The position numbers and the translations under genes were made by a program. From a virus: a DNA stretch of 44,004 nt. The notes beneath the pieces were generated by a model. The model had not been told where the DNA came from and ran no database searches. It saw only the letters and a list, made by a program, of their open reading frames with translations. Where the stretch lies: positions 1 through 44,004 of the IMG/VR virus record IMGVR_UViG_3300036980_000478; one strand, written 5' to 3'. Positions 2 through 26,254 of this stretch are shown in pieces (the stretch's first letter is position 1; each line of letters begins with the position of its first letter).

Positions 2-1243
2 TCGCCCTGGCTGCCGGCTGACATCCGTCAATCCAGCGGGCTTATCACTCTGAAAGGTAATGACACAAAGATCTTCCTCTTGGGACAGCACTATCAATCA
101 GCCGCCGGATCCAGGCATGGCCTGACGGCGTGGGATGAGCTGTGGACCTACGAAACAGAACTGCATTACAGGATGTGGGATGAGCTGACGCCTATCCCGA
201 CTGAGGACAACTCGATACGCCTCATCGTCACCTATGCCGGCTTCATGCCCGGCTCGCGCGGACGCGTCGACGAACGCAACCTTCTGTGGGATCTGTACTC
301 GGACAACGTTGGTAGATTGCCCAACGGAGAAATGGAATGGCCGGAAGGCAAAGGCCAGCCCATCCCCGGGCTCGAGGATCTTCCCTGCTGGAGCAACGGA
401 TCCGTGTTCGTGTGCTGGATGCACGAACCCTGCCAACCCTGGCAGACACCGGAATACTACGCCGCCGAGAGACGCGAGCAGCGCGCAAGCGCCTATGTCC
501 GCCAGCACGATAACCGATGGGTGTCCTCAACTGAGGAGTTCATCGACATGCACTGGTGGGACGCCGCTTGCTTGCTGCCAAGCCCGAAACAGCCCGACCG
601 ATCGGTGAGCCTGTCTATCGGGGTTGACTTCGCTCCGAAGGTTGACCGGGCCGCCGTCGTCGCAACCTACATGGACAAGCACGAGAATGTCTGCCAGGCG
701 TTCCACAAGATCTGGCACGGCTCTCCCAACGAGCCTCTACATCCCGGGATCGTCGGCAACTACCTCATCGAGATCTTCACGCTCCACAAGATCAGGAACA
801 TGCGCTACGACCCGTATCAGTTCCTGGGGACGGCAATGAGCCTGACTGCCCTGGGCCTGCCTATGGAGGAGTGGACCTCCGGCGACCCGAACTACGTCGC
901 AATGACCGAGGAGCTATACCGGCTCTTGAAGTATCATAGATTCAGGACTTACGCAGACGATGAGTGCCGCGAGCACATCGTCGCTACGGTCGTCGAACAT
1001 AAGCCGACCGGAATGCGTATCTCTAAGGCCAAGGGTGGCAAAAATGACTTCGCTGTGGCGCTGGCGATGGCTGCCCACTACACCGTCATATCCGGCGGGG
1101 AGACCGTCAGAGAGCCGATGTTCATTGAGTCTCCGTTCGCTGATCTTACGGAGCTTCCCATGAGTGTCGAGCAGGCTGAAATGCAGCGGATCCTCCCGCG
1201 CGAACTGCGTGATCCTGGCATGGAAGAAATGTGGAGAGATTAG
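2..1243 (+). CDS. terL: Terminase large subunit (5' truncated by window edge)
   Basis: The reading frame is open from base 2, so the N-terminal part with the Walker A motif lies outside the window. What remains starts just before the ATPase Walker B-like segment (LTAWDELW, about nt 119-145) followed by a coupling-motif-like VTYAGF. The C-terminal nuclease domain has an RNase H-fold pattern with three spaced acidic motifs: GVDFAP (near 620), YDPYQF (near 808) and NDFAVALAMAAH (near 1043). In the family this protein cuts concatemeric DNA and powers packaging through the portal. The portal gene follows two bases after the stop. A TTG inside the frame at 80 is not a credible start because the coding frame continues upstream of it. 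Identification is secure at family level; the subfamily is not resolved. Confidence 0.88.
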   Translation, partial: SPWLPADIRQSSGLITLKGNDTKIFLLGQHYQSAAGSRHGLTAWDELWTYETELHYRMWDELTPIPTEDNSIRLIVTYAGFMPGSRGRVDERNLLWDLYSDNVGRLPNGEMEWPEGKGQPIPGLEDLPCWSNGSVFVCWMHEPCQPWQTPEYYAAERREQRASAYVRQHDNRWVSSTEEFIDMHWWDAACLLPSPKQPDRSVSLSIGVDFAPKVDRAAVVATYMDKHENVCQAFHKIWHGSPNEPLHPGIVGNYLIEIFTLHKIRNMRYDPYQFLGTAMSLTALGLPMEEWTSGDPNYVAMTEELYRLLKYHRFRTYADDECREHIVATVVEHKPTGMRISKAKGGKNDFAVALAMAAHYTVISGGETVREPMFIESPFADLTELPMSVEQAEMQRILPRELRDPGMEEMWRD

Positions 1244-1245
1244 CG

Positions 1246-3117
1246 ATGGAAGATGAGGGGAAGGCTCCCGAGATCACCGTCGATGGTATGCAGCGGGCGC
1301 CGGAGTACATCATGGCTCGCTGGAAACGTGCCAAGGAGGACTGCCAGCCGTGGCACAACAAGATCGCCATGTATCGGAAGCTCTACGACAACAAGCACTA
1401 CAGCAGTGAACCCAAGGCCGGCGAGCGCAGGATCAACCTGCCGGAGTATCAGAACGTCGTCGACCTGGCAGTCGGCATCCTGGGATCCAAGCCGGTAGAG
1501 TTCCGCGCCTATGGGTTCACGCCGGGCGAAGCGGAGCAGAACCAGGGGAGCCGCGTTGAGAAGCTGCTCCAGGCGTGCATGTACGTCAACGGCGTCCGCC
1601 AGGAAATCGACATCCAAAAGACCCTGCTCAAGATGTTCGTCCGCGACACTGTTGGCTGCCTGCGGACTGTGTGGGACAACGAGTACGCCGATGAGTACAT
1701 GGAGGAACAGGGCTACTCGGACGTTCCCATCCGGTGGCAGGTCGTCGATGCGATGAATGTCTATCCGGTGCCCGGTGGCAAGAATCGCTGGCTGTGCATA
1801 TTCCACGCTGTCGAGAGATCTATCGCTGATGTGGAAGCAGCAGAGAACATCAGCATTCCTGCGTTCAACAAGATGTCGAAAGAGGAGAAGGAGCGCACCA
1901 AGCATCAGTGGCTGGACTATTGGGAGTTCGCCAAGGCCAAGGTCGAGGAGCTTGACGACGACGACAATGTCTTGAGTGAGCATGATAGCGTCGTTGTTCG
2001 TAACGCAACTATTTACGCTGACTACTTGATTGACCCTCTTGAAGTGAAGGAGGGCTATCACGACTTGACCTACACCATCTTCTTCTATGACCCGACACCA
2101 GAGAATGATCCCAAGTTGTGGGGCAAGGGGATCCTGACTGCACTCATGGAGCTGGTGCCGCATTTGGAGACGCGCTTCAACCGGCAGACGCGGCTGGTGG
2201 ATCTCTACGCCTCGCAGAACATGGTGTCCAAGACTGCTGATGCGCGCAAGATCAGGACAGACCCGGCCTTGGGCAAGATTGTTCCGTTGGGGCTCAACGA
2301 GGATCTCGGATGGCCTCAGTGGCCAGGAACGCCTCCTGACGTGACACAGCAGATTGCCTTCCTGCAGGGTGCGATCCAACAGTCGAGCTTCCCCCAGGCG
2401 CTCTATGGGCAAGGCGTTTCGACAATGGCCGGTTACGCGATCTCGCAGCTTGTGTCGACAGGACAGATCAGGCTGGTCACGCCAGGCGCACAGTTGGGGC
2501 TGGCGTGGACGATCGTTGCTAACAAGACGATGGCCCTTCTGCGCGAGTTCGCTGAGGCACCGATCATATGCTACGGCGTCCATGAGGGAAACCGCTTCCA
2601 GGAAACAGTGTCGGTAGAGGATGCGGTCGGCCTGCGCGTGGACGCTGATGTCATGTCCACTTTCCCCGGCGAGGATGTGCAGTCTGTGGCGATGGCTACC
2701 CAGGCTACGCCACACCTGTCGCATTCGACGATCCTCGAGCGGTACTATCATATCCAGCAGCCGAATGACGAAATCCGGCGTATGGAGATTGAGCAGGTTC
2801 GCAAGAACCCGGCGATGCTGGAGATCGTGATGATGGAGTACCTCAAGGAATTGGCAGCCGAAGAGGCCGAAAATAAGGATAGTTCTCCGAAGATCTATGG
2901 TGCTCTCCTGCAACGCTACATGAGCCAGGGGATGCCAGGCAAGCCTGGCCGCCCGGGAGAACCACCCAACCCGATGCAGCCAATGGGTCTGCAGTCGCCC
3001 ACCGGACAGCCGGTTCCGGGCGCCACTGGCGAGGAGCCTTACGGCCAGGAGCAGACACAGGGCCTTGAGGATCTTGTGACGTATACTCCATCACTGACGG
3101 GAGGCTTTGGCGGATGA
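1246..3117 (+). CDS. Portal protein
   Basis: A 623-residue protein directly after terminase, as expected for the dodecameric portal through which DNA enters the head. An in-frame GTG exists at 1231 inside terminase, but the ATG at 1246 has a GGAGAG ribosome-binding site 8 nt upstream and is preferred. The N-terminus is a helical region with W/Y-rich segments (MARWKRAKEDCQPWHNKI), the centre contains a long alpha/beta stretch, and residues around 390-410 carry a Gly/Ser-rich segment (GQGVSTMAGYAISQL) of the kind seen in portal stem/tunnel regions. The last 60 residues are Pro/Gly/Gln-rich (GMPGKPGRPGEPPNP) and probably disordered. The call rests on position, size and general character. No single diagnostic motif is visible, so a remote structural match would be the best confirmation. 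Confidence 0.78.
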   Translation: MEDEGKAPEITVDGMQRAPEYIMARWKRAKEDCQPWHNKIAMYRKLYDNKHYSSEPKAGERRINLPEYQNVVDLAVGILGSKPVEFRAYGFTPGEAEQNQGSRVEKLLQACMYVNGVRQEIDIQKTLLKMFVRDTVGCLRTVWDNEYADEYMEEQGYSDVPIRWQVVDAMNVYPVPGGKNRWLCIFHAVERSIADVEAAENISIPAFNKMSKEEKERTKHQWLDYWEFAKAKVEELDDDDNVLSEHDSVVVRNATIYADYLIDPLEVKEGYHDLTYTIFFYDPTPENDPKLWGKGILTALMELVPHLETRFNRQTRLVDLYASQNMVSKTADARKIRTDPALGKIVPLGLNEDLGWPQWPGTPPDVTQQIAFLQGAIQQSSFPQALYGQGVSTMAGYAISQLVSTGQIRLVTPGAQLGLAWTIVANKTMALLREFAEAPIICYGVHEGNRFQETVSVEDAVGLRVDADVMSTFPGEDVQSVAMATQATPHLSHSTILERYYHIQQPNDEIRRMEIEQVRKNPAMLEIVMMEYLKELAAEEAENKDSSPKIYGALLQRYMSQGMPGKPGRPGEPPNPMQPMGLQSPTGQPVPGATGEEPYGQEQTQGLEDLVTYTPSLTGGFGG

Positions 3118-4888: not shown

Positions 4889-7800
4889 GTGCCTGATTTC
4901 TGGAAAGACGACGCCTACAAGAAGCTGTTGGCGGAGCCTGATTCGCCTAAGACATCGAAGAAGTCGGGCTCTGTGTCGAAGGCTGCCCTGCCCTATGCGC
5001 CGCCGGCGAACGATACGCTGGCGAACGCGTTGACCATCAGGGCCAACCCGACGATCGAACAGAAGTACAAGAAGCTGCTCGTTCCTTTCAGTTCTCAAGC
5101 CAGTCAGCAACGCTTCGCTGCAGACGATCTTGTTGTCCCAGGGACGCCGCCGCCCCAACCGGCATCACCGGCGCAACCGTTTCCTTTGCGGAACCTGGGC
5201 GCTGTCGGCGCCCCTGGGAGTCTGCGGGCTCCTTCACCGTTCGCCCCCTATGGAACCTATGAGGATACCGAGCTTGGCATGACCGTCGCCAAGGAGCCGG
5301 ATCCTTTCGCTTTACTGCTCAGCCGGCCAGCGCCGCGACCGGGACCACACATCACCGGCTATGACTTCGGGATCGGTGAGTGGATGGCTGGCGTACAGGA
5401 GTTTTTCAATCAGGAGGGGAAGGCCCTCGATCGCTTCAACGAGCGCGTGGCAGCCGGACAGCCCGGCCTGGCGCTTGGCGGCCTAATGCGCCCGCTCGAG
5501 GAGTTTTATGTAAGCATGTATGGCAAGGGTAAGCAGGACAAGCGTGTGTGGGGCGTTGAAGCGGATCCAGATACCGGCGCCATGCTTGTTGTTCCACGCG
5601 ACATCCGCGAGTCATCCGTCGCAGGCAAGCTATTCAGCACGTCCTGGCTGTATCCAAAGGGCAAGTGGGGCAAGTGGCGCCAGGACAACCCGGCGCTGGA
5701 CCTGTTCTCTGGCAGCCTGTCCTTCCTCAAGATGATCCTCGACAGCGGATGGAACATCACTGTCAATGGCTTCTGGCCTTCTCTCGTATGGCGCGATGCT
5801 CCCTATCTGACACCCTATCGGGCATGGAGAGCCAACCTCGCGTACATCGCTGACAAGTATCCCACCGGGAACAAGTGGGGCAGGACCGGAGTCAACACGA
5901 GCCTTCACACGCTCGGGACGGAGCAGAAGGAACTCATCACTCCTGGCCGGATGATTGCGATGACCTTCCAGGATATGTGGAAGCCTTACCTCGCAGCGAT
6001 CGAAGCCGGGAAGTATTCCTACGAGGAGGAGCTTGTTCCTGCCTGGCAGAAGCTCTTGTCTGCTGGCGAAGATGTCCGCCAGAAAATGAAGGCCGACGCA
6101 ATCCTGGAATACGGCGTGGGGCCTGAGGCGGATGCGGCTAGGGAAGCGTTCATATCCGCGGCTGTCGCAAGACGCCGCATCGACCCGCTCATCGCCCGTG
6201 GCGTCGGCAAGATGACTGAGGCTGCCCTGGCGCCGATGTTCTCTGCCCGCGGACCTCACCCGTATGACGATCAGGTCGCCTACGCCGATTCGGTTCGTGA
6301 CGTTGATCGTCGGTCGGTGCAGCGTGGTGCAGAGACATACACGAGTGGCTGGAAAGACCTGATGACCGGCCTTTCCAGGGAGTTCGTGACCTCGACGGGC
6401 ATTGATCCAAGCTACTCGTATACCTGGTCGATTGACCCGGTAGCGGAACAAGCCTACTACCGCGAGCGAGATCTCATCGCGGCGCAGATGGGCCGCTTGC
6501 TGACGCCGAGCGAAGAGTACCGCTTGAAGATGGGCTTCGAGGATCCAGCGATCGAAATGCTCGGTGAGGTCTTTCTTGATCTGTCCTGGGCAGTCCCTCA
6601 GAAGATTTGGGACACAGCCTTCCGTGTGGCGATGATCCCACTGCGCGGACTAGCCAAGGTCGGTTGGCGCGGAGCCCGGGCCGTTGGCATGGGGTCATTC
6701 GTGAGTTGGCTCGGCAGGGAAACGACGATGTCTACTGCTCGTCGGTTTAGCTTCCGCGCGGCTGAGGTCTTTGGCGTTATCAGCCAGAACGTCGACAACG
6801 TTGACGGCGTGATCCAGGCGACAGAGAGATATGTCGAGGGAGCATTCAGGTCGATCCCTGCCGTGGGCCAGCGTCAGATCCGCATGGGCGCAGAACTAGC
6901 GGACGTTGTCGATATGAAGCAGTGGGCCACGATGGTCGACGACTCCATCGAGGAAGTGACAGAGATCATCCAGAAGCAAGCTCTCGATGCAGGTATGCCT
7001 GCCGCAGAAGCCGTCAAGCTGAGGCCGACCAAGGGGCAGGTCGTCAATGAGGTTGCGGACAAGTTCCAGGCTGCTTATCTGCGCGCGGTTGAGGAGAAGC
7101 TCGGAACACGCGTGGAGACGGTTCTTGCAACGAAGGTCGGGCCTGCGGTGGATACCTTGCGTGGCGCGTGGATCGAGAGTGTCCTGGCTGCCCGGCCTGC
7201 GTGGACAGCGATCAACGCGATGGATACCTGGTTCCGGGCTATGCTCTACGGGGTCAATCCACTCATGTCTGTGGATGAGATCCTCGCCACGACCAGAATC
7301 CCTCGGTCTATCTTTGAGCGGTTCCCGGTCGTTGAAGCGAAGGGAGAAATGGCCCTCGGCTCGAAGATGCCGAGGTTCGGGCCGTTCGGCTTCATGTGGC
7401 AGCGCCACAAGGGATCTGTGTTTCAGCAGATGCCGTGGCCGATCGGGGAGCAGGGATGGTCTAAGTTCCCGAAGGCGTATGCCGAGAATCACCCAATGGC
7501 CTCGGCGTTCGCAGATGGTCTTGGCTGGAAGCATTGGGGCGTCAGAACTCGCGAGACGCTCAACCTCGGGAATTGGGCTGCCGGCTGGAAGATGTACAAC
7601 ACGCAGCTCGAGTTCGCTGTCGCTGTCAGGTTGTATGCGACCCGCTACTGGAAGAACTACAGTGCCCTGTCCAAGCTCGGCGCAGCGAATCTCGTTGACG
7701 TGATCGACGATCCGGCCATGCGTGGGCTTGCCAGCATGATTTGGAATATGTCGGGCGATAACCCGGCTGTGCTGGAGACCCTGGCTGCCGAGGCGCTTCT

Positions 7801-10800
7801 CGGAGAAGGGATCCGTAGCAGGCCGTTCGCAACGCTGTTCGGCGGAGCAGACCTCAATCGGATGTTCCGCAACTTCACGCCGGAGCAGCGCGAGGTCCTG
7901 CGCGTCAAGCTCTACGAGGGGATGCGCGAGCGGATCAAGAGAGACAGGGGCCTGACGCCGGATAGTGCGGCTGAGGTTGTACAGTCGCTGCGCGATGACT
8001 TCGTGGCTGATTGGGCTGCTCATAACAAGGGCATCAACGCCGACGACTACATCCGTGGCAAGGGAACTGTCGAGCCGGCTGCCGGCCCGCCGGCTGCGGC
8101 TGGCCTGACCGACATCGGTGGTGGCGAGCTTGATCAGGTTGCGCATCAGACGGAAGTAGATATAGACAAACTCAGATCCAAACTGCGCAAGTCATGGAGC
8201 AACCTGACAGACGAAGACATCGAGCAGGTGATCGCGGAAGCCATTGAAAGGGAGGTAAAGCCAGGAGCTGCATTCGATGATGCTGACGTTCTCGCCGCCA
8301 AGAGATCCAAGGATAAGGCGATGAGGGCAGAGATCGAGAAAGGCCACGCTGAGGAAACGGCGAAGCTGACGCAACGCTTCGGGTCGCTTCCTACTGAGGT
8401 AAACGGCAGGCCGGTCGCTGGCTACTGGATCATCGAAGAAACAGATGCTGGTGTCGTTGTCGGGGTGTCGTGGTCTCCAACAAAGGACTACGAGTGGGGC
8501 TTCACGATCAAGCCTGGCGAGACCTTCGATGAGGCTCTGTCTCGGGCAAACGACGCGTACGCGGACATGATCGCCAAAACGAGATCAGGGGGTGTTGGCA
8601 CTGTAGAACCTACTGGAAGTCGCCTAACAACCACTGATGTCCGTATCTCAACGCAGGAGGGTGTGTTCGAGTACACCTACGAGGAAGCTGTTGCACGCCG
8701 GGACGATCTGAGCAGGTGGCTGACCGAGGGCGGAACAGAGGGACTGCCGGATGCAGAGAGGCATCTTGCTGCCGATGAGTTGAAGGCGTTGGACCGCGCG
8801 CTTGGCGCGCAGACCGTTGTCCCGCCGGCGAGCGCAATCAGTCCGCAGGCTGTGCCTGGCATTCCTGGGAACTTTGTCGCCGGCGGCGCCGGGAACACGG
8901 CTGCTGAGATCGCGTCGTGGACAAGCGATGAGTACATTGCCTCGCTTGTGGGGCGGACACGCCAGCTTGCCCATGAGTTGCAGGTTGTAGCCCCGGCTGA
9001 TGCCTCAGGGATCGAGCGCGAGCTCTATTGGCTTGGAGAGGAGATTGATTGGATCCGCACCCGGGCCGACGAGCTTGGCGTTCCGTGGGAACTGCGGCGC
9101 ACGTTCGAGGCAGGGCCTGATCCGGTTCTTCCGGGAGACCTTGTCTACTACATGGAGCCACTCGACGACGTTCTCGAAATCGGCGTTGTCGATAGCGTGA
9201 TGGGCAATACTGCCGTGATGAGCAACAACGACGTAGTGCCTGTGCATCGCATTGGCCCACACGTCACGGATCCATATAAGTTTTCCGACACGCCGGTTCT
9301 CGCGCCGCGTCCTGTCTCTCGCCCGGCACCCAGGCCGGCTGAGGCATCGCCTATCGACAACCTCATGGATCAGGGGATGTCCGAGGTCGACGCAACCAAG
9401 ACTGTCGCCCGGGAAGAAGCAGACGCTGTGCGCCCGCCCGATACTGCCCCGATCAGCGAGGCGGATCAGGTCGGCAAGGTGACAACGGACTATGGCGATC
9501 GGTCTGTTGAAGGTCCCAAGCCGAAGCCTGTCCGGGATCCAACGACCAGGGAAGGTCGCCAGAAGATCATCGACGATCTTGACGAGGAGATCGAAGCGAT
9601 CGAGAGGACCAAGAGCCCCGAAGCGCAGGAAGCATACCGCAAGGGCAAGGAAGCTCGCGCGGCGATGGCTGCCCTGCAGGAGGAGACATCCAAGCACGCG
9701 ATCGGCTTCGAGGCTTCGCCGGAATACTGGACGCTGTGGGATGACCTATCGCGAATGCGTGAGGCGCTCAACAAGTTCCGGGCGACTGTGTACCCGGGGC
9801 CAGCGCACATGCGCTCTGCTCCGATGGCCTGGAAGAAGTATTACCTGTGGAGCCAGGTCGTCTACGAGAACCAACTGGCCTACACCAATGAAATGCTCGC
9901 CGCGCTCAAGGACGGACGCGCGCGCTTCTACAAGCGCATGAGCCCTGACGAGTTCCTGCAGAAGATCGGCGGCCTGGATCTCGTCTACGACGAGCGAGGC
10001 ATCCTGATCTCGTGGACCGATCGTAGCGGCACGTTCCGCAGGACGCCGTACACTGTCCGCAAAGGCCTCGATGAGTTTCAAGCCATGATGGTCGGTCCCA
10101 ATGCTCCGACCGGGACCAAGATGGCGGATCCCTTCTTCGGCAGGCCGGCGCCGCCTATCCCTCCGGCTGCCGCTGCCCCGCCCCCGGCTGCAGCGCCGAC
10201 GCCTCCGCCGGCTGCTCCGCCACCTGCCGCTGCGCCACCGCCGGCTGCCGCTGCACCACCGCCTCCGGCTGCGCAAGCGCCTCCAGCTCGCCCGGCGGCG
10301 CCGGCACCCCTCGAGCCGGCTATCCCGCCTCCCGGCGGCCCACAGACGGCAGCGCCTCAGGCCCGACCGCCAAGCCCGCCGCCGCCCGAGGTCAGGGCTG
10401 GCGCGGGTGTACCGACGGACCTTCCTCTGACTGACATCCGAACGGATCCGAGGTTCCAGCCGCGCGATTCGTCAGGACAACTCATGCAGGTGAACGCGGC
10501 GCGCGTTGAGGTCATGGGAGACAACTGGGACTGGAAGATCTACGACCCAATCAAAGTCAATCGCATCGGCCCGGATGCTGCTTCCTATGGCAAGGGCTTT
10601 GAGCCAGGTCAGTACCTTATTCTCAGTGGACATCACCGCTTCGGTGCTGCGCACCGCGCCAATCTGCAGACACTTCCTGTCATGCTATTCGATCTTCCGT
10701 TCGCTGATGCCCTGCGCGTTGCCGAACTGTCCAACGTGATCAGCGCGGAAATGACACCCTGGGAGAAGGGGTCTATGCTTCTCCGCAGATTGAAGAATGG

Positions 10801-13800
10801 AGAGACAGAGACTGACCTAGCCCGCGGCATGTACCAGGATCCGAATAAGGCCGGCGTGGTAGCTCGCTACATCAGTCTCACCGATCTAGCCCCGGGCGTT
10901 GGCCGGCAGGTTGGCACTGCATCGTGGTTTGGCGAGAGCCACGGTTTCGTTCTGGCCGAAGCAGTGCGCAAGTTCGGGATCAATCCCGAGTTCCAGCAGC
11001 AGATCGTTACGAAGTACATGGCGGAGTACCAGCCGTCACCGCAGCAACTCAAGCAGTTCCTCGAGACGTTCGGGCCGAAGATCCAGCGCGATGTGCAGAT
11101 GGGCCTGTTCGCGATGGATGAGAGCTGGCTGTCTGAGTTTGCCAAGGCACAGCAGCAGGTCAAGGCACTCAAGAGCAAACAAACAACCGCCACGCGCGTT
11201 CTCAACGATCCCGAGCTTGCAAAGCAGATGGGTGTTAGCGACGAGACGCTCAAGGGGATTGTCAACGACCTCAAGGAACAGCAGGCAGAACTACGCCGCC
11301 TGTCCGGGCTGGATCCGCTCAAGCCGGCGCAGGTGCAAGAGGCTGATCTCGCCAAGGTTGCCACGCCGCCCGACGAGGCGGAGGTAGCGTTGCGCCAGCA
11401 GGCTTCCGATCGTAGAGTAGAACAGGAGATACGCCATGCCCCCGAACCGGATGCAGGCTTTGTTGAAGTTGCGCCCGCAGAGCCGCCCAAGCCCGTCGAC
11501 TCCGCCCCCTCCGTCGCGGCAAGTAGACCCGCCGGAGTGGAAGGGGCTGGACCTGAACCCGGCGTACTTCGGCCCGAGGGACGACCGCTACCTGGCGGAT
11601 CAACTCCCGCGAATGCCGGGGGTGGACACGCTCCGGCAGTCCGGTCCTCCGACGGGATTACCACGATCGCCGCGGACAATCTCCCAAATCCGGGCGAGTA
11701 TGTCACACCTTCCTACCTATCCGAAGCCCGAAAGCGAGCCGTCTCCGCCCAAGCCCGAAGAGGACTGAAAGGCGCCGAAGCCGAAGAAAAGGCGATCGCC
11801 TTCTTCGAACATCAGGTCGACAACGCCAACCGCGCTATGACGGCGTTCGACTCGCGCAAAGCCTTCTTCATCGGTGACGCTCCGGGTACAGGCAAGACCT
11901 ACAGTGGCGCGCTGGTCATTGATCAGATGATCGAGCGCGGGGCAAAGCGGATCCTTCTCGTCGCTCCAAGCGATACGCTCCTGCGCCAGTGGACTGACGT
12001 ACTGGAGCAGCTTGGCTTGTCTGTTCGCGTATTCAAGCAGAGCGGCGGGATCCCGGCAGTTGCCGAGCTTCCGGGCAAGCGCGGAGCTGTTTGGGCAACC
12101 ACCTACAGCAGCATGAACCATTGGTCCAGCAAGAGCAGTCTCGGAGCCATGCTTGGGAATCAACCGCTTGATCTTCTGATCCTCGATGAGGCGCAGGCTC
12201 TCAAGAACGCCTACAGTGGCGTGTCAACGGCGCTTGCTGGCGTCGATCTGCAGCGCCAGGCCAACAAGGTTCTATTCACGTCAGCGACGGGAATGGAGTC
12301 CCCGCTTCACTATGCGTACATGGCGGAGTCTCTCGGCATTGCTACTTTCGATGAAGCCATGCAGTCGTTGGACATCTACAGCGAAATGGTCACGCGTGAC
12401 TTCGGTGGCCGCCAGGTGAAGCGAGAGGAATGGCGTGGTGTTACGCCAGGCAAGCTGGCTGAACTGAACGAAATGCTCATCGAGAACGGCGCCTATATCC
12501 GCCACGAAATGTCCTACCTCGGCAACTACAACAAGGAGACGGGCCAGCTCCTGCAGGCTTACGTTGCTGCTGTTCCTGTCCCCGTCCAGGGCAGCTACTC
12601 GGAAATGTACGACAAGTTCAATGCCTTGGTGCGCGAGCTCAAGAAGCGGTACAAGAAGAATCCGAACGCAGTGATGGTGCTCGAGGCGCAACGTGTTGGG
12701 GTAGGGCGGTCGATCCTTGAGCAGATGAAGGTAGATCAGGCAATCGACATCGCCAAGGCAAAGCTGGCCGAAGGCGAGAGCGTGGCTATCTTCTCGTGGC
12801 GCAGAGAGGGCACCGAGATCGAGGATCTCCAGCAGGCTCTCAAGGACTACAGGAGCGGCAAGCGTGAGTTGGCCAAGGGATCAGTTATGCCGGTGCTGGC
12901 GCAAGGCATGATTGACCAAAACATCGCCTTCACCGGGCCTGTCGCAAGACTGGTCGAGGCGTTCCCGGATGCAGCCGTCATTACTGGAGCCGTTGCCGGT
13001 CCTGAGCGCGAGCGGATGATCAAGCTGTTCCAGACCGGCAAGGCGCGCGTGGCCATCATCACAACCGGCGCCGGAGGCGTTGGCCTTTCCCTGCATGACA
13101 TCATCGGCCAGTTCCCCAGGACACAAATCATCCTGACCATGCCTTACTCGGCTATGTCGATGGATCAGGTGGCCGGGCGCTGCTTCCGCATGGGAAGCCA
13201 GTCGAACGCGCAGGTGTTCTGGCTGTATGCCGACGCTCCGATGGAGCAAAAGTACGTTTCGCAAACGCTGCGCAGATCACAGGACATGGGTGCGCTCATC
13301 GGCGGGCCGGAGAAGGTGGCCGACGACACAGCCATGATCGACTTCAACTTCGCCATCGAGGGCGAAGGCAAGGCGACGGACTGGCTTCCCTTTACCCTGG
13401 GCGAAGTGGATCCGCTCGCTCCGCAGAAGTACGACTACTCGCAGTGGACCACGCCGCCGTGGAAGAAGCCCGGTTGGGAACCGCAGTACCGACCGGAGTT
13501 CCAGGAGCCCAAGCCGACCGGCCTTCCGCCGGAGCAGCCTGTGATCGTGCCTCCGCCGGCGGCGCCTGGCGGCCTGACGCCGGAGGGCGGGATTGTCTTT
13601 GGCAAGGCGCAAATCGACATCACCAAGCTGCAGGAGAACCTCGACGCCGGGCTGCCGATGGCAGAAGCCAGGGAGGCGGCACGCGTTGCTGCTGAGGCTC
13701 CGGTTCCTCAAGTCGCGGCCATTCCTCTTGAGAGCGAGATCAAGTGGACTCCGTCGACCAAGAGCGGCAGGCAGTACGGATCCTATCGCGGCAGGCAGGT

Positions 13801-16800
13801 CATCAGACAGCCGGCGGAGCCGGGCGGCACAAGCTACCTCCAGATTGGCGACGGTGGAGGCGCGACGGTTGCCGGCAAGTTCGAGGATGATGCCGAGGCC
13901 ATGCGTGCGATCGACCGCATGATCGGCGGCAAGGCTCCTGTTGTCGAGAGCTACTTCGACCTTGAGGAGGATGTTCGTCTCGTGTGGCAGTCGAAGGTTA
14001 GGGCGGACAAGCAGCTTCGCGAGGCACAGGCGACGAATGCTCTCGGCTCAACGCTGCAGGATCTCAACCGCAACGCCAAGGCTTCCGGCATGAGGCTGTC
14101 TGCCATACTCAAGCGGGAGGGCATGACCGCCGACGAAATGCGCCAGCTCATGGCCAGAAGCGTCAAGGTTGGCGACGTTGTCGAGATCCGCGATCCGCTT
14201 GCAACTGTGAGTAAGGGCGCTGGTGGCGGGGTGTGGCAGGAAGGAACGGTCGTTCAGATCACGGACGACTTCATCGTTGTCGAGTCTCCTGGCCAGAGAC
14301 TCAGTTTCAGCCGCGACGATGTCCATGTTCGGTCGATCTATCGAGCCGAGGTACCGCCGGCGGCGCCTGGTCCTGTCGCTGCTTCTGCAACGGCAGTCGA
14401 TGATCTGTCGAGTGAGTTCTTGGGCAAAGGCGACGACTATTGGGGTGTGAACTACAGCCCCGAGGGAGAAAGCTCATTCAGCGGCACGTCGTACAGCGGC
14501 ACACAATGCACTGGCTTTGCGTGCGAAGTGCGAAAGAGAGTCGGCCCTGAGCGTGGCAAGATCTACGGCTTCTCCGCAGAGGACAATCCGAAAGCTGGTG
14601 TCATCAGTCTTGGCGTGACCGGCCACGACTTTGCAGTGGTCGACGATCGCTACATTGTGGATCCCTGGCTGGTGGAGGTTGAGACAGGGAACATCACGAC
14701 CAGCACAGGACAGAAGATCGAGCTTGGCGGTAAGGGCGTGTTCGACATGGAGACTGAGGCCGAGCTTGTTGAGCAGATCTATGGGCCTCGCGAGAACTGG
14801 ACGCGCAACGTGCAGGCGGAGCAGGCGGGCATTCCGCCAGAGCCTTTGCCCATCGCCGGCCCGCACCCGACGATCGTCAAGACGCCGGCGGGAGATCAGT
14901 TCGACATGTTCGGGCAGTCGATCCCGGCAGATGCGGGAGTGGATCTAACTCTCTCTGAGGACCAGGTGTGGCGCTGGCAGGCCGAGGCCAAGCGCGCCGG
15001 CTGGAGAGACAAGTACGGGGACCTGGCTGACGATCCTGCAGCTCTCTACCGCGAGCTCAGGAAGGACCGGGACAACATCGTCCGGGCTCTCAAGAACGCC
15101 GGCGTCTCCGACACTGCAGCGGCACAGCAGGCATCCGAGACGGTCGACGCAGTGCTGCTCAAGATCGAGAGCATCGTTGGCGACATCCGCAGGACAACGT
15201 GGGCGCAGGGCGGGATCTTCGGCGCCGGGGTCATCCCATTCACAGTACCCGACTGGATGAAGCCGCGTGGCCGCCGCACGATCAACGAGGCCAACGAACG
15301 GATCCTGGCACAGTTCCACGACGCCATGCGCGCCTTCGATGAGCTTGAGGTTGCTGTCCGTGTGAGCCCGGCCACCGTCACGCTGACGGAGGAACAGCGG
15401 AAGATCCTGACTGATTGGGCTGTGCGCGCCCGCGAGGCCAAGGCAGAGATCCGTGATGTGGCGCAGTCCGGCGGCGAATACCTCGGCATGAAGATGCGAG
15501 GCGCCGAAGACGAGACCCTCGAGATCGCCCTAGACTACTCGAAGGAAACCAATCTCGACGCTCTCATGCGCGTTCCGATCCCGTTCTGGAAGTTCCCGGC
15601 GCGCAGCATCCCCTTCTGGCTCAAGGCGACAGCGACCCATCCTGAGATCCTCGCCTTCTGGATGAAGTACAACGCGATGAGCAACCGCTACGCGATCCAG
15701 AACCGGGCGGTCAACTCCAAGGGCATTCCGCTATCCAGGCTCGAGGGCTTCATCCCGATCGCGGGCAGCGATCTGTGGTGGAACCCGCTGGCGCCGCTCT
15801 CGGTGCGCTATGCCCTGCCGGACGAGGACATCGACTTCGGTGATGAGCCGGAATGGACTCCGTTGCAGCAGGTGACGAACCATGTCTACAAGGCTGTCCA
15901 GGATCTCAGCTTCGGCATGGGTCCGTGGACGATGGAAGTGCTCTACCAAACGAAGCTGATCGACGAGACCCGCTTTCCGCGCAAGTCTCTGATCCCGTTT
16001 GCTGATCTTGTTCCGCCGTGGACGCAGCGGGCGCTGCTGCAGGCGATGCGCAAGGTCGGCTTCCCTGTTGCCAGAGACATGTGGACACCTGAGGTTAGCT
16101 GGAAGGACTTTCTCGTCGAGCGCCAGGTGCTGGAGGATTGTGTTGAGACTGTGACCAATGCTCCTGGGCACGAGAAGGTCCCTGTTGCCCTGGCTTGTCG
16201 GGAAGCGATTGAGCAGCGCGAGGAGAGCCAGCTCTACCGGGATGCAAGGCAGAAGGTTGAGGCCGGCGAATACTGGCCTCGCGTGATGGGTTTCATCACA
16301 GGCTTCTACGCCAAGCCGTTCACCGACGGGGAAGCAGAACTCTATCGCGTGCGGAACCAAAGCAACTTCCTGTATGACATGATCAACGACGAGGTCGGAG
16401 CGGAGATCTTCAAGCAGAAGCCGGATCCGCAGGCCCGGGAGCAGGATTACTACGACTATCGCTACGACACTGGCGAAGGCAACATCTACGGATCCTACGG
16501 CATCATCGGATGGACGCGCACGCCGACCGAGGGCCAACTGAACGGCGAGGAGCGACGGCAGTACATCGCCAAGCAGTTCGATATCGACAAGCAGAGCGAT
16601 GCCAAGTTCGCGGCGCGGGAGAAGGCGCGCATGGAAGGCGAGCTTGCCCTCGGCGCGCTTCCAATCGGGACGCCGTGGGAACTCAAGGAAGCGATCTTTG
16701 CCAAGTGGCATACGGCGAACTCGATTGCTGACCAGCAGTACCCGATGGCCCGCACGCCTTGGACCTCCGTCGGCGCCAAGTCTCAGGAGACGCTGACGGA

Positions 16801-18256
16801 ACACCTGTACGACCTGTGGTGGTCAGCGATCAAGGGCAGCCGGCCACGCTACGATCCTGACACGGAGACCTACGTCGAGTACAAGAAGCGCCTGGCGGAG
16901 TGGGAGAAGGATCTGCCCAACATTGCCGGCACCGCGATGGCGCCGTTCATGCGTGAGATCGCCATTGTTCCTAAGCCGACGCTCATCCCTGACCTGGTCA
17001 GCATGACCACGCCGGAGAACCTGCGCAAGTGGGACATGGCCAACGACACCATCCTCGATGCGATGGAACGCGTGTGGGAGGAGCAGTATTGGGGCAAGTA
17101 TTGGGAGAGCATCGAAGGCCTCGAGGGCTACGAGCGAGACCTGGCAGATATGAAGTTCAAGATGCAGTGGCCTTACGCACCAAGCGAGGAAACGGTTGTG
17201 CGTTGGGTCATCGCTGAGTACGGCAACAAGTGGACGACGGAGCAGATCCGTGCCGAGTACAAGAGAGGCAACGGCGCGCTGACTGTCAAGGAGCGCCTGA
17301 GTGTTGGTGACACTGATCTGGATAAGCAGGCAGATCATGTATTCAACTGGCTGGCATGGGTCGGGCCAAGCAAGAAGGCGCTGCGCCAGGCGATCGAGGA
17401 TCAGGGTGGGGATCCCGACTGGATCGACATGTGGTACGGGACCAACGGGAAGCCGGCTGCCTGGCGTGAGGAGGAGTGGGCCGCGTTCTACAGCGCGATG
17501 GCATCGGCGGCGGCGACGCTCAATCTCAAGCAGCCGAGCATCGCAACGCTCGAGGAGTGGACGGTCGTCCAGAAGATCAACGATGAGTACACCACGACCG
17601 CCGAGACGATGTTCGGAGAGAACATTTGGAACATCAGCGCGATCTACTCGGGTCTGCCGATGTCGAAGCGCAGTGAGTATCGGGTCGAGCATCCTGAGCT
17701 TCCGGCCTTTTGGGACTTCCGTGAGGTTTGGGCATCCGGGCATCCGCTGTGGGCGAAATACTACATGGCCGAGGGAGCCAAGACCTCGTCGGGTGGCGGC
17801 GGCAGCGGCGGGTACGGTGGTGGAAGCCGGTCGACGGGCGGATCCAGCGCGGCTGCAGCCAAGCAAGCTGTCGGCTACGCGGGCATGGGTCCGCCGGCGG
17901 CGGAGCGATCGACCTTGGACGTGCGTCAACTCATGGCGCCTGGGAAGCTCGGCAGAGGACGCTACGGCAAGCTGGCATCCTGGCCTACGGGCCTGATGAA
18001 GAAGGTATCGCCCAAGACGGCGGCAGATGTGGCCAAGTCGCTGACCAAGGGAACTACAGTTTCGCCAGCGAGTTTCAGTGAGCTCGCGCCGGTGGCCAAG
18101 GGGAACAAGGCGTACATGCAATTCGTCGGCTCGCTCAGGGGAGCAGAGCGCGAACAAGCCCTGTTCGAGGAAGTGTGGAAGGAGGCTCATCCACCAGCAA
18201 AGCCCAAGAAGATCGTTCCCGTCAAGAGTCAGGTTGGGGGCAAGTTCGGTCCCTAA
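4889..18256 (+). CDS. Giant polyvalent virion protein: ParB-like, SF2 helicase and papain-like modules
   Basis: A single 4455-codon frame starting at GTG with GAGG 8 nt upstream. Visible modules in order: Pro-rich N-terminus (1-115); long helical aromatic-rich region (about 120-1055, including GVNPLMSVDE near 785); small domains separated by Pro/Ala linkers (1060-1310); a possible SH3-like segment (about 1410-1460); Pro/Ala linker (about 1750-1836); ParB/Srx-like domain (about 1845-1990, GHHRF at 1914-1918); linker; SF2 helicase (about 2250-2800) with GxGKT at K2336, DEAQ 2433-2436, SAT 2465-2467 and QVAGRCFR 2760-2767, resembling Strawberry-notch/DarB helicases; SH3-like (3091-3154); candidate peptidase/transglutaminase-like C3207, H3246, D3258; second aromatic-rich region (3300-4290, PFWKFPARSIPFW near 3566); Gly-rich linker near 4300. 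No membrane segments or NPPY methylase motif were seen. A virion-packaged, possibly injected role is inferred from its position between portal and capsid genes. Confidence 0.85.
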   Translation: MPDFWKDDAYKKLLAEPDSPKTSKKSGSVSKAALPYAPPANDTLANALTIRANPTIEQKYKKLLVPFSSQASQQRFAADDLVVPGTPPPQPASPAQPFPLRNLGAVGAPGSLRAPSPFAPYGTYEDTELGMTVAKEPDPFALLLSRPAPRPGPHITGYDFGIGEWMAGVQEFFNQEGKALDRFNERVAAGQPGLALGGLMRPLEEFYVSMYGKGKQDKRVWGVEADPDTGAMLVVPRDIRESSVAGKLFSTSWLYPKGKWGKWRQDNPALDLFSGSLSFLKMILDSGWNITVNGFWPSLVWRDAPYLTPYRAWRANLAYIADKYPTGNKWGRTGVNTSLHTLGTEQKELITPGRMIAMTFQDMWKPYLAAIEAGKYSYEEELVPAWQKLLSAGEDVRQKMKADAILEYGVGPEADAAREAFISAAVARRRIDPLIARGVGKMTEAALAPMFSARGPHPYDDQVAYADSVRDVDRRSVQRGAETYTSGWKDLMTGLSREFVTSTGIDPSYSYTWSIDPVAEQAYYRERDLIAAQMGRLLTPSEEYRLKMGFEDPAIEMLGEVFLDLSWAVPQKIWDTAFRVAMIPLRGLAKVGWRGARAVGMGSFVSWLGRETTMSTARRFSFRAAEVFGVISQNVDNVDGVIQATERYVEGAFRSIPAVGQRQIRMGAELADVVDMKQWATMVDDSIEEVTEIIQKQALDAGMPAAEAVKLRPTKGQVVNEVADKFQAAYLRAVEEKLGTRVETVLATKVGPAVDTLRGAWIESVLAARPAWTAINAMDTWFRAMLYGVNPLMSVDEILATTRIPRSIFERFPVVEAKGEMALGSKMPRFGPFGFMWQRHKGSVFQQMPWPIGEQGWSKFPKAYAENHPMASAFADGLGWKHWGVRTRETLNLGNWAAGWKMYNTQLEFAVAVRLYATRYWKNYSALSKLGAANLVDVIDDPAMRGLASMIWNMSGDNPAVLETLAAEALLGEGIRSRPFATLFGGADLNRMFRNFTPEQREVLRVKLYEGMRERIKRDRGLTPDSAAEVVQSLRDDFVADWAAHNKGINADDYIRGKGTVEPAAGPPAAAGLTDIGGGELDQVAHQTEVDIDKLRSKLRKSWSNLTDEDIEQVIAEAIEREVKPGAAFDDADVLAAKRSKDKAMRAEIEKGHAEETAKLTQRFGSLPTEVNGRPVAGYWIIEETDAGVVVGVSWSPTKDYEWGFTIKPGETFDEALSRANDAYADMIAKTRSGGVGTVEPTGSRLTTTDVRISTQEGVFEYTYEEAVARRDDLSRWLTEGGTEGLPDAERHLAADELKALDRALGAQTVVPPASAISPQAVPGIPGNFVAGGAGNTAAEIASWTSDEYIASLVGRTRQLAHELQVVAPADASGIERELYWLGEEIDWIRTRADELGVPWELRRTFEAGPDPVLPGDLVYYMEPLDDVLEIGVVDSVMGNTAVMSNNDVVPVHRIGPHVTDPYKFSDTPVLAPRPVSRPAPRPAEASPIDNLMDQGMSEVDATKTVAREEADAVRPPDTAPISEADQVGKVTTDYGDRSVEGPKPKPVRDPTTREGRQKIIDDLDEEIEAIERTKSPEAQEAYRKGKEARAAMAALQEETSKHAIGFEASPEYWTLWDDLSRMREALNKFRATVYPGPAHMRSAPMAWKKYYLWSQVVYENQLAYTNEMLAALKDGRARFYKRMSPDEFLQKIGGLDLVYDERGILISWTDRSGTFRRTPYTVRKGLDEFQAMMVGPNAPTGTKMADPFFGRPAPPIPPAAAAPPPAAAPTPPPAAPPPAAAPPPAAAAPPPPAAQAPPARPAAPAPLEPAIPPPGGPQTAAPQARPPSPPPPEVRAGAGVPTDLPLTDIRTDPRFQPRDSSGQLMQVNAARVEVMGDNWDWKIYDPIKVNRIGPDAASYGKGFEPGQYLILSGHHRFGAAHRANLQTLPVMLFDLPFADALRVAELSNVISAEMTPWEKGSMLLRRLKNGETETDLARGMYQDPNKAGVVARYISLTDLAPGVGRQVGTASWFGESHGFVLAEAVRKFGINPEFQQQIVTKYMAEYQPSPQQLKQFLETFGPKIQRDVQMGLFAMDESWLSEFAKAQQQVKALKSKQTTATRVLNDPELAKQMGVSDETLKGIVNDLKEQQAELRRLSGLDPLKPAQVQEADLAKVATPPDEAEVALRQQASDRRVEQEIRHAPEPDAGFVEVAPAEPPKPVDSAPSVAASRPAGVEGAGPEPGVLRPEGRPLPGGSTPANAGGGHAPAVRSSDGITTIAADNLPNPGEYVTPSYLSEARKRAVSAQARRGLKGAEAEEKAIAFFEHQVDNANRAMTAFDSRKAFFIGDAPGTGKTYSGALVIDQMIERGAKRILLVAPSDTLLRQWTDVLEQLGLSVRVFKQSGGIPAVAELPGKRGAVWATTYSSMNHWSSKSSLGAMLGNQPLDLLILDEAQALKNAYSGVSTALAGVDLQRQANKVLFTSATGMESPLHYAYMAESLGIATFDEAMQSLDIYSEMVTRDFGGRQVKREEWRGVTPGKLAELNEMLIENGAYIRHEMSYLGNYNKETGQLLQAYVAAVPVPVQGSYSEMYDKFNALVRELKKRYKKNPNAVMVLEAQRVGVGRSILEQMKVDQAIDIAKAKLAEGESVAIFSWRREGTEIEDLQQALKDYRSGKRELAKGSVMPVLAQGMIDQNIAFTGPVARLVEAFPDAAVITGAVAGPERERMIKLFQTGKARVAIITTGAGGVGLSLHDIIGQFPRTQIILTMPYSAMSMDQVAGRCFRMGSQSNAQVFWLYADAPMEQKYVSQTLRRSQDMGALIGGPEKVADDTAMIDFNFAIEGEGKATDWLPFTLGEVDPLAPQKYDYSQWTTPPWKKPGWEPQYRPEFQEPKPTGLPPEQPVIVPPPAAPGGLTPEGGIVFGKAQIDITKLQENLDAGLPMAEAREAARVAAEAPVPQVAAIPLESEIKWTPSTKSGRQYGSYRGRQVIRQPAEPGGTSYLQIGDGGGATVAGKFEDDAEAMRAIDRMIGGKAPVVESYFDLEEDVRLVWQSKVRADKQLREAQATNALGSTLQDLNRNAKASGMRLSAILKREGMTADEMRQLMARSVKVGDVVEIRDPLATVSKGAGGGVWQEGTVVQITDDFIVVESPGQRLSFSRDDVHVRSIYRAEVPPAAPGPVAASATAVDDLSSEFLGKGDDYWGVNYSPEGESSFSGTSYSGTQCTGFACEVRKRVGPERGKIYGFSAEDNPKAGVISLGVTGHDFAVVDDRYIVDPWLVEVETGNITTSTGQKIELGGKGVFDMETEAELVEQIYGPRENWTRNVQAEQAGIPPEPLPIAGPHPTIVKTPAGDQFDMFGQSIPADAGVDLTLSEDQVWRWQAEAKRAGWRDKYGDLADDPAALYRELRKDRDNIVRALKNAGVSDTAAAQQASETVDAVLLKIESIVGDIRRTTWAQGGIFGAGVIPFTVPDWMKPRGRRTINEANERILAQFHDAMRAFDELEVAVRVSPATVTLTEEQRKILTDWAVRAREAKAEIRDVAQSGGEYLGMKMRGAEDETLEIALDYSKETNLDALMRVPIPFWKFPARSIPFWLKATATHPEILAFWMKYNAMSNRYAIQNRAVNSKGIPLSRLEGFIPIAGSDLWWNPLAPLSVRYALPDEDIDFGDEPEWTPLQQVTNHVYKAVQDLSFGMGPWTMEVLYQTKLIDETRFPRKSLIPFADLVPPWTQRALLQAMRKVGFPVARDMWTPEVSWKDFLVERQVLEDCVETVTNAPGHEKVPVALACREAIEQREESQLYRDARQKVEAGEYWPRVMGFITGFYAKPFTDGEAELYRVRNQSNFLYDMINDEVGAEIFKQKPDPQAREQDYYDYRYDTGEGNIYGSYGIIGWTRTPTEGQLNGEERRQYIAKQFDIDKQSDAKFAAREKARMEGELALGALPIGTPWELKEAIFAKWHTANSIADQQYPMARTPWTSVGAKSQETLTEHLYDLWWSAIKGSRPRYDPDTETYVEYKKRLAEWEKDLPNIAGTAMAPFMREIAIVPKPTLIPDLVSMTTPENLRKWDMANDTILDAMERVWEEQYWGKYWESIEGLEGYERDLADMKFKMQWPYAPSEETVVRWVIAEYGNKWTTEQIRAEYKRGNGALTVKERLSVGDTDLDKQADHVFNWLAWVGPSKKALRQAIEDQGGDPDWIDMWYGTNGKPAAWREEEWAAFYSAMASAAATLNLKQPSIATLEEWTVVQKINDEYTTTAETMFGENIWNISAIYSGLPMSKRSEYRVEHPELPAFWDFREVWASGHPLWAKYYMAEGAKTSSGGGGSGGYGGGSRSTGGSSAAAAKQAVGYAGMGPPAAERSTLDVRQLMAPGKLGRGRYGKLASWPTGLMKKVSPKTAADVAKSLTKGTTVSPASFSELAPVAKGNKAYMQFVGSLRGAEREQALFEEVWKEAHPPAKPKKIVPVKSQVGGKFGP
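11436..11768 (+). CDS. Possible overprinted 110-aa Pro-rich protein inside the giant gene
   Basis: This ORF lies in a different frame from the giant gene, exactly where the latter encodes a low-complexity linker between the ParB-like and helicase domains. It has an excellent start: AGGAG at 11424-11428, 7 nt before ATG. Third codon positions in the alternative frame are mostly G/C, as in neighbouring genes, while the giant frame over the same stretch uses many A/T-ending and rare codons (AGA, CTA, GTA, GGA). The product is Pro-rich with one more ordered segment (LDLNPAYFGPRDDRYLADQL). The upstream bases resemble those before the gene at 18290. It could be a real overlapping gene, or the relic of a gene captured into the linker. 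Expression is unproven. Confidence 0.4.
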   Translation: MPPNRMQALLKLRPQSRPSPSTPPPPSRQVDPPEWKGLDLNPAYFGPRDDRYLADQLPRMPGVDTLRQSGPPTGLPRSPRTISQIRASMSHLPTYPKPESEPSPPKPEED

Positions 18257-18289: not shown

Positions 18290-19051
18290 ATGCTACCTCA
18301 GGATCAGTCTACGCAGGTTGAGCCAGGCGACGCGACCGAAGTTCCCAATGAGGGGATGCTCGGTCAGGAAGAAGGCGTCGATACATTCGACGACCAGGAC
18401 TCCGGCCTGGACTACGATGCTGCGCAACAGGCGATCCAAGCTGCCGAGACCCTGCGCCAGGACGTGAACCGAATGCGCAGTGTCTACGATCAGAACTTCG
18501 CTCAGTTCCAGTCGGAAGCCCAAAGGCGGGAAGAGGAGCTGATGGATCAGCTTGCTTCCTTCCAGACCGCCGACATGAGCGAAGAGGACCGCGCCGCGTT
18601 CTATGCGGAGCGAGGCCAGGAGAAACTGTCGCGCAGAGAACAAGCAATTCAGCAGAGGGAGGACGCCCTACAGTCTCGCGAACAGCAGACGCAGTGGCGG
18701 GGATTCTTCTCCGACCGCTTGGGCGTTCCGACTGAGGAGCTTGTCACCGACCAGGGTCTTGCAGAGTTCTACACTTCTGGATGGGCGGGAGTTGAGCGCA
18801 TGGTCGACGCGCAGACCTCGTACATCGAGGAGCTGGAATCGGTGCTGGCGACAAACAATCTTCCGATCCCCCGGGAACAACCGATCACCCGACAGCCGCA
18901 GGGCAGACGAGCCCCCAACGTGAGGACGCGTGTCGAGGATGGTCCTCCTCCGAAGAGAGGGTCGTTCTACAGTCTGCCTTGGAACGAGCGTGCTGAGATC
19001 ATCCGTCGGATAGAGGCGGGGGAAATGAAGGCCGAGGACGTTCAGATCTAG
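18290..19051 (+). CDS. Putative capsid scaffolding protein
   Basis: A 253-residue, highly charged, coiled-coil protein directly upstream of the major capsid gene, the classic scaffold position. The N-terminus is acidic and low in hydrophobics. Residues ~40-130 form heptad-like Glu/Gln/Arg-rich helices (REQAIQQREDALQSREQQ). The C-terminal ~50 residues are basic and Pro/Arg-rich and end in a short helix (WNERAEIIRRIEAGEM), which in known scaffolds contacts the coat protein. The start has a strong purine-rich ribosome-binding site (AGGAGAAGGAG). No protease domain is fused to it. The role is inferred from architecture and neighbours, not from a sequence signature. Confidence 0.68.
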   Translation: MLPQDQSTQVEPGDATEVPNEGMLGQEEGVDTFDDQDSGLDYDAAQQAIQAAETLRQDVNRMRSVYDQNFAQFQSEAQRREEELMDQLASFQTADMSEEDRAAFYAERGQEKLSRREQAIQQREDALQSREQQTQWRGFFSDRLGVPTEELVTDQGLAEFYTSGWAGVERMVDAQTSYIEELESVLATNNLPIPREQPITRQPQGRRAPNVRTRVEDGPPPKRGSFYSLPWNERAEIIRRIEAGEMKAEDVQI

Positions 19052-19082: not shown

Positions 19083-20096
19083 ATGGCAGACATCAGTCAG
19101 ACCAGTTTTGCAGGGTCCGTCAAGACGTTCTACAACACCACCCTGCTCATGCGCGCTCAGCCGCGCCTGCTTCACACTCGTTGGGGGATCAAGGCCAAGA
19201 TCAACAAGTTTGGCTCCCTTGAGTGGCGGCGCTACGGTCAGTACGCCGCCATCACCAACCCGCTGACTGAGGGCACCACGCCGGCAGAACAGGCCGCGCC
19301 GAGCCTGCAGCAGATCACGTCGACGCCACTGTTCTACGGCGCCTGGGTTGGGTTCTCCGACGAGATCGAAATGACCTCGATCGACGCGTTCGTGACGGAA
19401 GTCACCGGGATCCTGGGAGACCAGGCCGGCCTGTCCGTCGACACGATCATCCGGGACGTGATCACCGCCGGTGTGTCCAAGATGTACTCGAACGGCAAGG
19501 GCTCGCGCGTTGCCCTGGACGCCCCCGGCGACGATGTCACCTACCGGGACATCGTGATGGCGATTGCCACGCTCTATGCGGCAAACGCCTTGCCGATGGA
19601 AGGCGGGGTGTTCCCCGTTTCCATCCACCCGCACAGCATTGCCACGCTGATGCAGGATCCGCAGTTCACCAACGTCTTCGTTGCAGAGGCCTCGCGTGAG
19701 GCAAACAGCCCGATCCGCAGTGGCTACATCGGGCGGTTCCTCATGTGCGACTTCTTCATGTCCTCGAACGTCCGCGAGTACACGAACCTCGGGTACGGCG
19801 GCACGACCGACGTGTATTCGATGACCTTCTATGGGCAGCAGTGCTATGGCGTGTCGGGCATCGGCGCCATCATGCCGAAGGACGTTGACAATCAGGGGCC
19901 GGAGGGTCTGCCCGGAACGGGCGGCAAGTTCCCGAGCCCCGTCGAAGTGATCCCGAAGCAGCTTGGATCCGCCGGATCCGACGATGCCCTCAATCAGCGT
20001 GCCACCCTGGGTTGGAAGGCGTCCCTCGATGGCGAAGTGCTGCAGCCGGTGTTTGCTCTCGATCTTGAGCACACCAACGCCTTCTCCGATCTGTAA
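19083..20096 (+). CDS. Major capsid protein, N4-gp56 family
   Basis: A 337-residue HK97-fold type coat protein. The pattern matches the N4-gp56 major capsid family: an N-terminal YNTTLLMRAQPRL segment, the strand-rich EWRRYGQYAAITNPLTEG, then FYGAWVGFSDEIEMTSID, followed by the helix ILGDQAGLSVDTIIRDVI. The C-terminal half is beta-rich with Gly turns (YGVSGIGAIMPKDV). GAGGG precedes the ATG by 7 nt. It would assemble the icosahedral head together with the upstream scaffold-like protein. A stable hairpin follows the stop codon. This is one of the firmest calls in the window. Confidence 0.88.
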   Translation: MADISQTSFAGSVKTFYNTTLLMRAQPRLLHTRWGIKAKINKFGSLEWRRYGQYAAITNPLTEGTTPAEQAAPSLQQITSTPLFYGAWVGFSDEIEMTSIDAFVTEVTGILGDQAGLSVDTIIRDVITAGVSKMYSNGKGSRVALDAPGDDVTYRDIVMAIATLYAANALPMEGGVFPVSIHPHSIATLMQDPQFTNVFVAEASREANSPIRSGYIGRFLMCDFFMSSNVREYTNLGYGGTTDVYSMTFYGQQCYGVSGIGAIMPKDVDNQGPEGLPGTGGKFPSPVEVIPKQLGSAGSDDALNQRATLGWKASLDGEVLQPVFALDLEHTNAFSDL

Positions 20097-26012: not shown

Positions 26013-26254
26013 TGCCTAAGCGCCGGCCACGAACGACGACGATCGGCGGGATCAAGCCCCTGGGAATGACCCGGGCGCCTATCAGAGCTCCGCGCGCCGG
26101 CTACAGACCTTTCCGCGTTTCCAGTCGCAAGGATGTCCGCCCTCCGGTGATCGACAAGGGCGAGTTTGTCAAGCATCGCAAAGGTCCAGAGAGACCGAAC
26201 GTGGGTGCGGATCCACGCGATGGCGACACAGTCCGTCAAGGGATCTCTACCTGA
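26012..26254 (+). CDS. Small highly basic hypothetical protein
   Basis: An 80-residue protein whose ATG overlaps the previous stop (TGATG) and whose end overlaps the tail-fibre start by 35 nt. It is strongly basic and Pro/Arg-rich (PKRRPRTTTIGGIKP, APIRAPRAGYRPFRV), with no predicted globular core. Such peptides may bind DNA, RNA or acidic partners in the particle, but nothing proves it here. Coupled start and clean coding overlap support it as a real gene. Confidence 0.55.
   Translation: MPKRRPRTTTIGGIKPLGMTRAPIRAPRAGYRPFRVSSRKDVRPPVIDKGEFVKHRKGPERPNVGADPRDGDTVRQGIST

Follow-up and report, generated by a model that had tools for sequence, protein, structure and literature searches.

Genes and reading frame at the locus

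The window, that is, the whole 44-kb virus record analysed here (44,004 nucleotides), carries a 13.4-kb gene among virion genes. The gene and its neighbours are as follows.

2-1243: terminase large subunit, 5'-truncated, upstream of the portal-like gene
1231-3117, plus strand: portal-like protein (PHROG portal, E 8e-5), colinear with the portal of Bacillus phage Page
3337-4623, plus strand: conserved ORF between portal and giant, with 14 homologous ORF hits among relatives
4889-18256, plus strand: giant gene with a GTG start, encoding a candidate polyvalent protein of 4455 aa and 490 kDa (predicted)
18290-19051, plus strand: scaffold-like coiled-coil protein, 253 aa, also found 3' of the giant in relatives
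19083-20096, plus strand: N4-gp56 family major capsid protein (TIGR04387)

The capsid assignment is firm: the product of 19083-20096 scores 132.5 bits against TIGR04387, whose cut-off is 60. A sequence-only reading of this DNA had placed the giant between portal and capsid genes and assigned the capsid to the N4-gp56 type, and both statements agree with these flanking genes. Further downstream, a GH25 lysozyme gene at 29584-30279 argues for a bacterial host. A 1015-aa protein encoded at 26166-29213, conserved in the clade, carries a CBM_4_9 carbohydrate-binding domain (E 2.9e-10) and is probably receptor-binding. Positions 40118-40885 encode a Pam3 gp34-like protein (Pfam PF23977, above cut-off).

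From the GTG at 4889 to position 18256 the giant occupies a single frame of 4455 codons with no internal stop, while the other five frames hold 35-166 stops each. A GAGG lies 8 nt 5' of the start, GC by codon position is 0.64/0.47/0.73, and codon statistics are positive in each 300-codon block, so the frame is coding throughout, and the single uninterrupted frame seen in the sequence-only reading is real. Nor is the frame an assembly artefact, since a like frame lies at the same place in independent contigs. Two long ORFs on the opposite strand (15731-16804 and 16823-18190, minus strand, 357 and 455 aa) follow from the scarcity of stops in their frame (35) and are not counted as genes. The expected Pro/Ala/Gly-rich linkers are present, but the earlier figure of at least ten segments is not borne out: composition reveals about seven linkers, and hence about eight segments.

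Domains of the giant protein

The following features were located in the giant, all on the plus strand.

5744-8113, plus strand: N-terminal conserved module (N-module), residues 286-1075 (~790 aa), in 14 of 14 relatives with an intact 5' part, window included
9560-10129, plus strand: conserved segment, residues 1558-1747, in 9 of 20 giants
10076-10441, plus strand: Pro/Ala-rich linker, residues 1730-1851, by composition
10427-11191, plus strand: ParB/Spo0J-like domain, residues 1847-2101, with a GxxRxxA motif (GHHRFGAA), by profile searches
11759-13528, plus strand: Strawberry-notch (Sno)-type SF2 helicase, residues 2291-2880, by Pfam and visible motifs
14309-14818, plus strand: Cys/His/Asp thiol-enzyme-like segment, residues 3141-3310 (QCTGFAC ... 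GHDFAVVDDRYIVDPW), by eye only
15272-18136, plus strand: C-terminal conserved module (C-module), residues 3462-4416 (~950 aa), with an invariant PFWxFPxRS, in 20 of 20 giants

The helicase is the sole domain recognised by Pfam (AAA_34, E 9e-14, with Helicase_C_4 just under its cut-off), and motifs I (GTGKT), II (DEAQ), III (SAT), V and VI are visible. Searched as a two-sequence profile, the ParB domain was confirmed by a match to Spo0J (E 5e-6); against NCBIfam parB_part it reaches 9.5e-9, under the family cut-off. Judged by eye only, the Cys/His/Asp segment looks papain- or transglutaminase-like near residues 3207-3260. Database searches with it returned only unrelated proteins over ~23 residues or matches at E > 0.1, and it is absent from all other giants compared. 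Pfam recognises no protease, methylase or RNA polymerase domain in the window protein. The HExxH zincin-like metallopeptidase that is common, although not obligatory, in polyvalent proteins is likewise missing from it, and a simple hydropathy scan finds no transmembrane-like segment.

The description of the giant as a polyvalent protein, already offered from the sequence, is well supported. One chain combines at least two domains of disparate activity (ParB-type and SF2 helicase). Domains of the published polyvalent catalogue are represented by the Sno-type helicase and, in relatives at the same locus, by ART-PolyVal, ddrB-ParB and GGDEF. The phage type of polyvalent protein lies among virion genes, as this one does between its portal-like and capsid flanks, an arrangement repeated in the relatives.

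Conserved ends and a changing middle

As single-sequence queries against IMG/VR, neither the helicase nor the C-terminal part returned a match. The first relative was reached through a capsid search of IMG/VR, and its giant frame of 3734 codons has both ends in common with the window protein. A profile of the C-terminal end, built initially from two sequences, retrieved 9 IMG/VR loci, and an improved profile retrieved 25. About 20 non-redundant IMG/VR relatives occupy the same genomic place and span 2836-5544 codons where complete; with near-duplicates removed, the comparison set comprises 20 giants including the window's. The family has no match in GTDB genomes, where no host genome was found, or among 50,697 phage records of GenBank. 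In contigs that reach far enough, the giant is followed, directly or after ~0.5 kb, by a gene of ~230-305 codons and then by a capsid gene of ~330-347 codons, and portal homologues lie upstream where contigs extend that far. One genome (G003) has a 1608-codon Gln/Ala/Gly-rich, partly repetitive ORF between the portal region and the giant (L029:7419-12245, minus strand).

Conservation is concentrated at the two ends. Iterated profiles of the N- and C-modules gave the module counts listed above, and in BLAST comparisons among 14 giants the mean share of other giants aligning per residue is 86% in the C-module, 43% in the N-module and 11% in the middle. Each relative that retains its 5' part has a middle, of 678 to 3244 residues. 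The nearest relative (L036) shares the N-module, the ParB domain (50%), the helicase (43%) and the C-module with the window protein, yet its stretch from helicase to C-module cannot be aligned. In that interval the window protein has the Cys/His/Asp segment, whereas the relative has an ART-like segment (motif only, below Pfam thresholds).

Other middles carry other enzymes. Among the 13 other giants, ART-PolyVal is found in four and ddrB-ParB in one. A metallopeptidase-like domain occurs in nine giants, not all of which retain the HExxH residues. One giant (L017, genome G001) has both ART-PolyVal and GGDEF; its GGDEF diguanylate-cyclase domain (residues ~2283-2452) lies beside the ART-PolyVal and an HExxH metallopeptidase-like domain. 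The N-terminus of another (L011) is weakly lytic-transglycosylase-like (best E 0.057). Three giants, including the longest of all (5544 codons), contain a tyrosine recombinase mid-protein, in which the catalytic R, HxxR, H and Y can be made out.

L028:15095-15844: tyrosine recombinase, residues 2406-2655 of the giant (genome G005), catalytic residues visible
L048: tyrosine recombinase, residues 1385-1621 of the giant, catalytic residues visible
L043: tyrosine recombinase, residues 1320-1553 of the giant, catalytic residues visible

The main text, as distinct from the supplementary domain list, of the 2017 survey of polyvalent proteins (Iyer et al.) contains neither 'integrase' nor 'recombinase'. 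As far as these searches reach, the tyrosine recombinase appears to be a new kind of cargo.

Structure and remote homology of the end modules

Neither end module has a Pfam match. AlphaFold2 predicts a mostly helical C-module, and its model (mean pLDDT 73) hits nothing in BFVD or the PDB at E <= 0.001. The N-module model is helical but poor (pLDDT 55), and the N-module alignment is too diverged to serve as a search query. Profile comparison with hhalign, for which leave-one-out controls inside the family gave 99.7-100%, detects no kinship of the end modules with N4 vRNAP, P1 DarB, DdrB, DarA, Sit, Page gp20 or BcepIL02 gp70. The large Pagevirus protein gp20 had been a candidate relative and was set aside on this result.

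LPD38 was sought because it marks known phage giants. It is absent from the window protein at E <= 10, while the control BcepIL02 gp70 is assigned it by Pfam with E 6e-36. In a profile comparison addressed to a split-LPD38 origin, the N-part scored 26.7 (probability 5.6%), where the highest of 60 column-shuffled controls reached 22.4, and the C-part did not rise above shuffles. A very remote kinship of the N-module with the region before LPD38 is thereby hinted at, below significance. As a speculative lead, cargo inserted into an LPD38-like module could have split it in two and so given rise to the end modules.

Comparison with known systems

Proteins of this kind are already known, and several are larger. 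The window protein does exceed N4 vRNAP (3500 aa) and P1 DarB (2255 aa), as the sequence-only reading had stated, but its size is no record: a plasmid polyvalent protein of 12,242 aa has been described (PMC5512222). The DarB-like giants of Bcep22-like phages (Lessievirus), JC1 gp69 (4515 aa) and BcepIL02 gp70 (4667 aa), are both longer as well. They resemble the window protein in size, in the podovirus setting, in an SF2/SNF2-type helicase mid-protein and in a long C-terminal part. BcepIL02 gp70 differs in gene position and in its ends, which are not homologous to the window's by profile comparison. It further carries SLT, an Eco57I-type methylase, LPD3 and LPD38, none of which Pfam detects in the window protein. 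JC1 gp69, a podovirus polyvalent protein, was seen in purified virions through 51 unique peptides (PMC9144972).

In the LPD38-type giants, LPD38 forms the C-terminus; the window protein lacks it, and a very remote relation is possible. In two Bacteroides phages, BKO1-TP3 and BS-TP4 (records L079, PQ571269.1, and L081, PQ571277.1), the gene that adjoins the portal gene is itself a polyvalent giant, 16.7 and 16.2 kb long. These products (~5.5k aa) also exceed the window protein, and their LPD38-type C-terminus is not homologous to the window's C-module by profile comparison.

N4 vRNAP (gp50) is described as having a region for injection at its N-terminus, an enzyme in the middle and a region for encapsidation at its C-terminus (PMC5512222). 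By description it is like the window protein in its helical N-part, middle enzyme and large C-part (PMC5512222), and the two genomes share a capsid family. The four vRNAP Pfam families of gp50 are not found in the window protein, which by Pfam has no T7-like single-subunit RNA polymerase, and profile comparison detects no sequence homology between gp50 and the window's end modules. In P1, a helicase (DarB) and a ParB-type domain (DdrB) are carried in the head, darB adjoins the portal gene, and an N-terminal signal of DarB directs its packaging into the head (PMC9024508). DarB fuses an adenine methylase to a SWI2/SNF2 helicase, whereas Pfam finds no methylase in the window protein. The ParB domain of the window protein is recognised as Spo0J/ParB and not as ddrB-ParB, and the P1 Dar proteins are not homologous to the window's end modules by hhalign.

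Proposed role and alternatives

We consider it likely that the window giant is a polyvalent phage protein whose ends serve packaging and ejection and whose middle is exchangeable cargo. This division of labour is proposed by analogy with N4 vRNAP, JC1 gp69 and P1 DarB, and constant ends around exchanged enzymes would be expected if the virion packs the protein and delivers it to the host. Context and precedent are the grounds for inferring packaging and injection: the gene keeps a fixed place upstream of the scaffold-like and capsid genes, the ends are retained, and the cargo is of polyvalent-catalogue types. The C-module would anchor the giant inside the procapsid, close to the portal and the scaffold, with the N-module probably sharing this task, and the conserved modules would carry the protein out of the head along with the DNA. 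The exchangeable middle (0.7-3.2 thousand residues across the family) would then work in the host during the first minutes of infection. In the window phage, the ParB-type DNA/nucleotide-binding domain and the Sno-type DNA translocase would most likely act on the entering genome, in counter-restriction or remodelling, and the thiol-enzyme-like segment may be further cargo. Which end performs which delivery step, like the action of the cargo, is assigned here provisionally. Several observations count against delivery. Neither end module shows detectable homology to a module with a demonstrated part in packaging or injection, ordinary replication too makes use of ParB and helicase domains, and the window protein has no HExxH, no structure match for its C-module and no transmembrane-like segment.

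ParB and SF2 helicase domains occur in replication and partition proteins, and the giant could accordingly be a non-packaged intracellular multi-enzyme protein that lies in a late operon by chance. Such a protein is quite improbable here, given the linkage to scaffold-like and capsid genes in all contigs long enough, the exchange of enzymes while the ends are conserved, and cargo of the ART-PolyVal, GGDEF and metallopeptidase kind. Cleavage of a polyprotein before packaging, with only some products entering the virion, is unlikely too. Metallopeptidase-like domains in nine relatives and the processing of P1 DdrB (PMC5512222) would suit it, and the window's Cys/His/Asp segment could be a peptidase; against it, N4 vRNAP is packaged uncut despite its MPTase (PMC5512222), and the window protein has no recognised protease.

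Internal virion proteins of podoviruses are known to be helical. The predicted all-helical C-module and helical N-module, together with capsid and portal neighbours that resemble those of the podovirus Page, would fit a structural ejection or ruler-type protein that builds a DNA channel, its ends doing the work and its enzymes riding as passengers. We regard this as very unlikely. A middle of up to 3244 aa is found in all relatives that retain the 5' part, and the C-module model matches no known ejection protein in fold. A channel-building role is nonetheless partly compatible with the preferred explanation, packaging and ejection by the ends with cargo between them.

A bolder extension of that explanation is possible but doubtful: the N- and C-modules would form an undescribed protein-delivery chassis, and anything between them, as long as 3.2 thousand residues and tyrosine recombinases included, would be loaded into the head and translocated. 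The chassis would belong to a clade of uncultivated phages whose system appears, by sequence, unrelated to those of N4, P1 and Bcep22.

Implications for polyvalent phage proteins

As far as the searches reach, the two conserved modules and the clade that carries both appear to be new. With them, polyvalent phage proteins gain a family whose conserved ends lie outside Pfam's LPD domains, and, in the tyrosine recombinase, a kind of cargo that the founding survey (2017) leaves unmentioned in its main text. Constant ends and exchanged middles are seen across ~20 uncultivated relatives, and this contrast makes the distinction between a packaging and injecting part and its cargo directly testable by domain swaps.
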